From Orbus hercynius (GTDB lineage Bacteria; Pseudomonadota; Gammaproteobacteria; Enterobacterales; Orbaceae), in the NCBI RefSeq assembly GCF_003634275.1, contig NZ_RBWY01000001.1, positions 124,001 through 188,000 on the forward strand: a DNA stretch of 64,000 bases. Direction: 5' to 3'. Below, one piece after another: positions 28,918 through 30,364 of the stretch. The notes below the pieces were generated by a model, which was not told the DNA's origin, did not search any database, and worked only from the letters and a program-made list of their open reading frames with translations. How positions within the stretch are numbered: the stretch's first letter is position 1; each line of letters begins with the position of its first letter. The translations under genes were made by a program, and so were the position numbers.

Positions 28918-29511
28918 ATGAAAACAAGCCATTTTTTTGCTCATCTTTCTCGGTTAAAATTGATTAACCGTTGGCCCTTAATGCGTAATGTTAGAATAGA
29001 AAATGTTTCTGAACATAGTTTACAAGTTGCTTTTGTTGCTCATGCTCTTGCTATTATTAAAAATCGCAAATTTAATGGTCAACTTAATCCTGAGCGGATT
29101 GCCTTAATGGCAATGTATCATGATGTGTCAGAAGTATTAACGGGCGATATGCCAACTCCAACTAAATACTATAATCCGCAAATCACAATTGAATACAAAA
29201 AAATTGAAAAAATTGCTCAAAATAAATTGATCAATATGCTACCAGCCGAATTTCAAGACGACTTTAGAGCATTGATCGATGATGATTTTTATAGTGAAGA
29301 TGAAAAAAATATTGTTAAGCAAGCTGATGCATTGTGCGCTTACTTAAAAACGATTGAAGAGTTAAGTGCTGGCAATAATGAGTTTAAATTGGCAGAGCAA
29401 CGGTTGAAGAAAACACTATCACAACGAGAAAGTGCTGAAATGGATTATTTTCTTGAGGTATTTGTACCGAGTTTTAGTCTATCATTAGATGAAATTACTT
29501 TAGAAGAATAA
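28918..29511 (+). CDS. yfbR: 5'-deoxynucleotidase YfbR (HD domain)
   Basis: 197-residue HD-domain phosphohydrolase that removes phosphate from deoxyribonucleoside 5'-monophosphates. Family motifs are near-identical to E. coli: [25 protein letters not shown] at the N-terminus (quoted in part: [16 protein letters not shown]), [17 protein letters not shown], the HD pair in [16 protein letters not shown], and [13 protein letters not shown] with a further metal Asp. Single gene after the dcw terminator. Confidence 0.95.
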
Positions 29512-29662
29512 TTTTTATTTTAGTGATTATTATCAGCTATATTTTGTTATAAAATTATTTTATTCGGACTATATTGTGTTTTTATTTTCTAAGGTGTATA
29601 TAGTTAATTGAATATTGATAAATATTCATAACTCAATAGTTTTTTAACTAAGGATAGTGAAA

Positions 29663-29743
29663 ATGGCTAAGACACCAGCTAAAAAAGAGCCAGCTAAAGC
29701 ACCTGCCAAGGCACCTGCTAAAGCTCCAGCTAAAAAGAAATAG
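29663..29743 (+). CDS. Lys/Ala/Pro-rich mini-protein (26 residues)
   Basis: Very short gene starting MAKTPAKKEPAKAPAKAPAK and ending in KKK. Its composition is almost only Lys, Ala and Pro in AKAP-type repeats, like the tails of histone H1 and bacterial H1-like proteins. Support for it being real: AAGGA about 9 bases before the ATG, a terminator 25 bases after the stop, and third-base variation between the repeats (gct/gca/gcc, cca/cct), which argues against mere DNA repeat expansion. Function unknown; nucleic-acid binding or polyanion shielding is only an inference. It could still be a low-complexity artefact. Confidence 0.6.
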   Translation: MAKTPAKKEPAKAPAKAPAKAPAKKK

Positions 29744-29768
29744 TTGAAACCGAATTAATTTGATTAAA

Positions 29769-29788
29769 GGGTCATTTGACCCTTTTTT
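29769..29788 (+). terminator. Terminator after the mini-protein gene
   Basis: GGGTC-ATTT-GACCC stem-loop, extendable by one A-T pair, followed by TTTTTT. It defines a monocistronic unit for the 26-residue gene. Confidence 0.88.
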
Positions 29789-29839
29789 CATGCAAACAAT
29801 TTAGCCAATAGTCTATTTTTTTATCTTAGTGATGCGATG

Positions 29840-30328
29840 CTAATCAGATACTGGGGCATGATACTGTATTACGAGTATCGCGTAATAGGCTTTACCGTTT
29901 GGTGTATCAACGGTGATTTCATCATCAACTTTATGGCCGATTAAGCTACGTGCAACAGGGCTGTCGATAGAGATCCAGTTTTTTTTCGGATCGAATTCAT
30001 CTGGCCCAACTAAACGAAAGATTTTTTCATGACCATTTTCATCTTCCAGTGTTACCCAAGCGCCAAAAAATACCTTACCTTCTTGCGCAGGATTGGGTTC
30101 AACAATTGTCAACGCTTCAAGCCGTTTGGTTAAAAATCTAACGCGGCGATCAATTTCGCGCAGTCGTCTTTTACCATAAATATATTCGGCATTTTCGCTG
30201 CGATCACCCATTGCGGCTGCTTCCGAAACTGCTTGGGTTACTTTAGGTCGCTCTTCTTTCCAAAGATATTTTAATTCACGATCAAGTGCCAAATATCCTT
30301 CTCTTGTTATATAATTGCTCTTTGCCAT
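29840..30328 (-). CDS. greB: Transcript cleavage factor GreB
   Basis: Rescues backtracked RNA polymerase by stimulating transcript cleavage. N-terminal coiled coil with the acidic tip in AAMGDRSENAEYIYGKRRLR, and a C-terminal FKBP-like domain (KVFFGAWVTLED, ISIDSPVARSLIG). The GreB-type YLWKEERPKVT distinguishes it from GreA. ATG at 30328 (MAKSNYITREGY) is chosen because it aligns with relatives and gives 162 residues. A GTG at 30355 would add nine. Divergent from tex, with only 51 bases between the start codons. Confidence 0.95.
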   Translation of the reverse strand: MAKSNYITREGYLALDRELKYLWKEERPKVTQAVSEAAAMGDRSENAEYIYGKRRLREIDRRVRFLTKRLEALTIVEPNPAQEGKVFFGAWVTLEDENGHEKIFRLVGPDEFDPKKNWISIDSPVARSLIGHKVDDEITVDTPNGKAYYAILVIQYHAPVSD

Positions 30329-30336
30329 AATTAAAA

Positions 30337-30364
30337 TTGTTGATTTTGATTCCACTAATAAAAT
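30337..30364 (+). promoter_or_regulatory. Candidate promoter of tex
   Basis: TTGTTG (30337-30342), a 16-base spacer and TAAAAT (30359-30364). It would start the transcript only about ten bases before the tex ATG at 30380, so the leader would be unusually short. Confidence 0.35.

Follow-up and report, generated by a model that had tools for sequence, protein, structure and literature searches.

A free-standing Lys/Ala/Pro-rich mini-gene with conserved expression signals in part of the Orbaceae

Short genes of low complexity are easily overlooked, and one such gene lies between yfbR and greB in the window, i.e., the whole 64,000-nucleotide stretch of Orbus hercynius DNA analysed here. Its anatomy is conserved in five genomes and its amino-acid sequence is under selection. 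As judged from sequence comparison, the frame is almost certainly protein-coding. The best explanation is that this mini-gene is genuine, monocistronic and limited to part of the family Orbaceae, where several bacteria of the insect gut retain it. It was first predicted from the DNA letters of the window, and both its position and its flanking genes were borne out (Table 1). The greB frame, as listed, opens at an upstream GTG; the start seen in relatives (MAKSNYITR) corresponds to the ATG at 30328.

Table 1. The mini-gene, its signals and its flanking genes in the window
Feature	Position	Strand	Details
yfbR	28918-29511	+	NCBIfam 5'-deoxynucleotidase, E 1.2e-101
Candidate promoter	29574..29602	+	TTGTGT 29574-29579, 17-nt spacer, TATATA 29597-29602; inferred
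5' hairpin/palindrome	29610..29627	+	GAATATT-GATA-AATATTC; predicted 5' end of transcript
Ribosome-binding region	29645..29654	+	TAACTAAGGA; ends 8 nt 5' of ATG
Mini-gene ORF	29663-29743	+	ATG 29663, TAG end 29743; 26 aa MAKTPAKKEPAKAPAKAPAKAPAKKK; 9 Lys, 1 Glu
Intrinsic terminator	29766..29788	+	AAAGGGTC ATTT GACCCTTT + T run; from fold and conservation
greB	29840-30355	-	GreB, E 1.1e-72; converges on mini-gene

Lysine, alanine and proline make up 88% of the residues in the window copy. Of the 457 ORFs in the window that open with ATG and reach 20 aa or more, the runner-up has a share of 45%, and when the window was simulated 100 times with a first-order Markov model, the top share was 52%; the ORF is therefore not a chance frame. 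The predicted synonymous variation is also present, as the three AKAP repeats of the window copy vary solely at third positions. As DNA, the 12-nt array scores 55 and ranks second among the tandem repeats of the window. The description of the protein as almost pure AKAP holds for residues 11-24, to which these units are confined, but not for its N-terminal start, MAKTPAKKEP. The mini-protein would be disordered, with a net charge of about +8 and with Lys and Pro alternating along an alanine chain.

The family set comprised 44 Orbaceae genomes (39 of them at least 90% complete). It was searched with three queries: a DNA pattern of ribosome site plus MAKTP, a protein profile (four peptides) and a 5'-region model. 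All three returned the identical set of five carriers, with one copy each. These are two of the four genomes of the window's genus, probably Orbus (G000, the window's own genome, and G001), both Frischella genomes (genus g4; G006, F. japonica, and G009, probably F. perrara) and the single Zophobihabitans genome (genus g2; G004, Z. entericus). By the same queries, the mini-gene was not found in the other two genomes of the window's genus, in either genome of genus g3 or in any of the 35 genomes of genus g5, which is probably Gilliamella. Given these absences, the gene is dispensable.

The reading frame is kept in the relatives, which is the pattern that the original prediction had named as support for coding. 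The carrier ORFs have 24, 26, 26, 26 and 29 codons, with every length change in frame. When 21 codons were aligned from both ends, the window copy differed from that of F. japonica at 10 positions and from that of Zophobihabitans at 11, and all of these differences were synonymous and at third positions. If changes were spread evenly over the three codon positions, the chance of such a pattern would be about 2e-5 and 6e-6, respectively, values which are only indicative because the sequences are related. Each of the seven comparisons in which G001 or G009 takes part includes 3 to 7 non-synonymous changes; some of these arise because the alignment, anchored on the right, runs across an indel in G001. 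In all five orthologues, the MAKTP start and the KKK end are invariant and a single acidic residue is present; in G009, the share of K, A and P comes to 69%. The mini-gene thus has what is expected of a free-standing small-protein gene, namely an ORF under selection with its own start, ribosome site and terminator.

Both the ribosome site and the separate stem-loop terminator had been predicted, and both are supported by the orthologues. The AAGGA sequence (29650-29654) lies 8 nt ahead of the ATG, and all 10 bases of TAACTAAGGA are invariant across the five copies. The terminator region (29735-29800) folds at -15 kcal/mol, with a z-score of -2.9 and an energy equalled by 2 of 200 shuffles. A stem-loop with a T run occupies the same position in every orthologue, the stem being GGGT/ACCC in the window versus GGGC/GCCC in the others. 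It went unflagged in a simple terminator scan, presumably on account of a tail rule that wants five T after the stem. Likewise, the consensus promoter scan listed no + strand promoter just upstream of the mini-gene. Promoter and terminator are thus claimed here on conservation and folding. A -10-like box, GTATAwAG, is common to the five orthologues, including the relocated Zophobihabitans copy, while the -35 element is weak or absent in G001. In F. japonica, another stem-loop resembling a terminator, GGGCATGCGCTC with a T run behind it, is present some 100 bases 3' of the terminator of the mini-gene (L031, ~1737-1761).

The 5' hairpin pairs in the folds of all five orthologues, and 85.7% of its pair cells are kept in a fixed register. 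However, the register is shifted by 2 nt in Zophobihabitans and no two-sided change occurs among the five, which gives no covariation support; selection at the level of structure is therefore unproven. The GAATATT/AATATTC palindrome could equally be a DNA operator as an RNA structure. Taken together, the candidate promoter, the 5' hairpin and the ribosome site suggest that the gene is well expressed.

The gene order yfbR, mini-gene, greB, tex is found in the window and in G001. The original prediction had proposed that the product may act with the adjacent transcription factors GreB and Tex; this partnership finds no support in synteny and was rejected. In both Frischella genomes, the gene that comes after yfbR and the mini-gene encodes a type I methionine aminopeptidase and is on the opposite strand, and neither greB nor tex occurs within the 11-kb stretches covered. 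In Zophobihabitans, the mini-gene stands between lolE and the gene of a MarR-type regulator, and yfbR of this genome has no adjacent mini-gene. Furthermore, two genomes of the window's own genus have greB beside yfbR without a mini-gene. In G003, yfbR, greB and tex are all retained and the first two are about 100 bases apart; in G002, yfbR stands beside a greB. The latter greB (L159:5435-5905) shares 53% identity with the GreB of the window, the G003 counterpart 92%; we read the G002 gene as a replaced or second greB.

DNA similarity between the window and the Zophobihabitans copy extends from -111 to +86 around the ATG (E 4.5e-25). Because the locus or the neighbours differ in Zophobihabitans and Frischella, the transcription unit is independent of greB and tex, and it has moved, or was moved, in its entirety. 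At least three changes are needed to place the mini-gene on a tree of LpxC and YfbR (33 rows, for 33 of the 44 family genomes). By this reading of the sequences, it would be either an old gene with several losses or one that was regained.

Outside Orbaceae, scans of the order, the class and named genomes did not find the mini-gene. A loose pattern matched 14 of 394 genomes of the order, of which only three matches encode AKAP proteins, all of them in Orbaceae; the profile, run over 274 genomes of the class, matched the window's own genome alone. The named-genome scan was exact and required MAKT/AP and KKK ends, so that divergent analogues would escape it. It gave 74 pattern stretches, two of which are the mini-gene (Z. 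entericus and F. japonica), and many of the remainder are the same motif within a long enzyme-like ORF. A viral scan returned nine stretches and no free AKAP gene; the three inspected (L129, L130 and L134) each lie at the end of a longer open frame. Nine further matches of the 5'-region model (E 0.09-0.97 per genome), which lie before or inside unrelated genes, were judged to be due to chance. One of them, at E 0.12, is in G011 (L144, ~1540-1570), where the start of a gene that we read from its sequence as Dps-like carries TTTAACTAAGGA and ATGGCTAAGAC, resembling the start region of the mini-gene.

Pfam gave no match for two of three peptides tested and, for the third, only a sub-threshold PT repeat (13.9 versus 26.2 bits); NCBIfam matched none of the three. 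Hence, by the searches made here, the mini-gene belongs to no named or curated family. A literature search found no report of it, which does not by itself establish its absence from print.

A transcript of about 180 nt with its own promoter, a 5' hairpin and a terminator with a T run would also suit a small RNA, either dual-function or mainly regulatory, with the peptide as a secondary matter, and the invariance of the 10-nt TAACTAAGGA in all five copies is in keeping with this. We consider it unlikely, since the constraint within the ORF falls on the amino-acid sequence and leaves third positions free, the 5' hairpin lacks covariation, and no known small RNA was recognised, the best Rfam score being 22.1 bits against a cut-off of 50. 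Slightly less probable still is a cationic small protein associated with the ribosome. Thx and L36 are short, basic ribosomal peptides of bacteria, similar in size and charge to the mini-protein, and the ribosome site looks strong. However, the aromatic, Arg or Gly pattern that we take to mark Thx is missing, no solved structure matched at E up to 10, and such patchy presence would be unusual in a part of the ribosome.

A short peptide rich in Lys and Pro, in gut symbionts that are in mutual competition, might also be a secreted or released cationic antimicrobial peptide. The mini-protein, however, has no hydrophobic signal peptide in its sequence, and its neighbours vary by locus, none of them being recognised as an export gene linked to it, which makes this reading very improbable. 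The tiny ORF with a terminator close behind is also reminiscent of a leader peptide or attenuator, if not of a translation artefact of repeat DNA. This reading is strongly disfavoured, as the next gene is on the opposite strand in the window, G001, Frischella and Zophobihabitans, and both the codons and the protein are conserved at two loci.

The reading preferred here, that of a polyanion-binding protein, draws on known proteins with similar tails. Lysine-, alanine- and proline-rich tails are established as unfolded and polyanion-binding, and that of HupB/MDP1 carries a PAKK motif. In the account given in PMC9239181, AlgP of Pseudomonas aeruginosa is 352 aa long; its N-terminal domain is helical, KPAA repeats occupy a region of 154 aa, and KPAA peptides bind DNA in vitro. 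The repeat region is, like the mini-protein, Lys/Ala/Pro-rich, disordered and variable in repeat number. However, AlgP is a large, domain-bearing protein, whereas the mini-protein is a free chain of 26 aa with AKAP units. The latter do not correspond to the KPAA type of tail of AlgP and PhaF, as they have a period of four with K and P two residues apart. There is also no room for a helical N-terminal domain, since in all five copies the whole protein, from its own start to its own stop, is 24-29 aa long. The C-terminal tail of histone H1 and chlamydial Hc2 share with it the lysine-rich repeats, the repeat-driven change in length and the high positive charge; Hc2, as described in PMC2848022, differs in having 165-237 aa with lysine-rich pentamers. 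The K/A/P-rich, disordered tail of HupB/MDP1 is similar too but is described as joined to a folded HU domain (PMC5676037, PMC5974015), whereas the mini-protein stands alone.

The likeness to a free histone-H1-like tail, which had been predicted, thus stands for composition. The mini-protein is Lys/Ala/Pro-rich and strongly basic, as are AlgP, Hc1/Hc2 and BpH1, and yet no Pfam or NCBIfam profile for such proteins is matched over the cut-off. On these grounds, the mini-gene would be a free-standing variant of H1-like tail sequences.

With nine Lys and one acidic residue spaced by Ala and Pro, the mini-protein is expected, by analogy with such tails, to be unfolded and to bind polyanions, and it probably works in this way. 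We infer the following course. A short monocistronic mRNA of about 180 nt would be made from its own promoter, open with a hairpin that likely shields the 5' end, bear a strong ribosome site and end at its own terminator. The product would be an abundant, disordered polycation, binding DNA, RNA/ribosomes or polyphosphate through non-specific electrostatic contacts. This is the mode of action thought to apply to the tails of AlgP, PhaF, HupB and histone H1, minus the folded domain. Composition by itself fixes no single ligand. A more far-reaching proposal is put forward tentatively, as possible and rather less probable than not: a domain-less ‘histone tail’ of 24-29 residues may act alone as an abundant condenser of nucleoid, RNA or polyphosphate, regulated from its own promoter (perhaps via GAATATT-N4-AATATTC) and swapped into and out of symbiont lineages as a self-contained transcription unit.

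Co-occurrence did not narrow down the ligand. Polyphosphate kinase (PP_kinase) is found in 42 of the 44 family genomes, with or without the mini-gene, and is uninformative for a polyphosphate link. A role as stand-in for H-NS was also rejected. Six of the 44 genomes encode an H-NS domain (G002, G003, G004, G005, G006 and G009), of which three have the mini-gene and three lack it, and the 35 genomes of g5 have neither. Within the window's genus, an H-NS domain protein is present in the non-carriers G002 and G003 but not in the carriers G000 and G001; Frischella and Zophobihabitans have both. For expression, a stranded RNA-seq dataset of F. perrara is described in PMC10104596 (GSE189728).

Tails of this kind are usually studied as appendages on larger proteins. 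A natural stand-alone tail under protein-level selection makes it possible to ask for the tail's own role by knocking out an 81-base gene. That neither Pfam nor NCBIfam gave a match over the cut-off illustrates how short low-complexity genes escape family libraries. The restriction of the mini-gene to the window's genus, Frischella and Zophobihabitans, and its absence from g5, provide natural pairs of presence and absence within the family.
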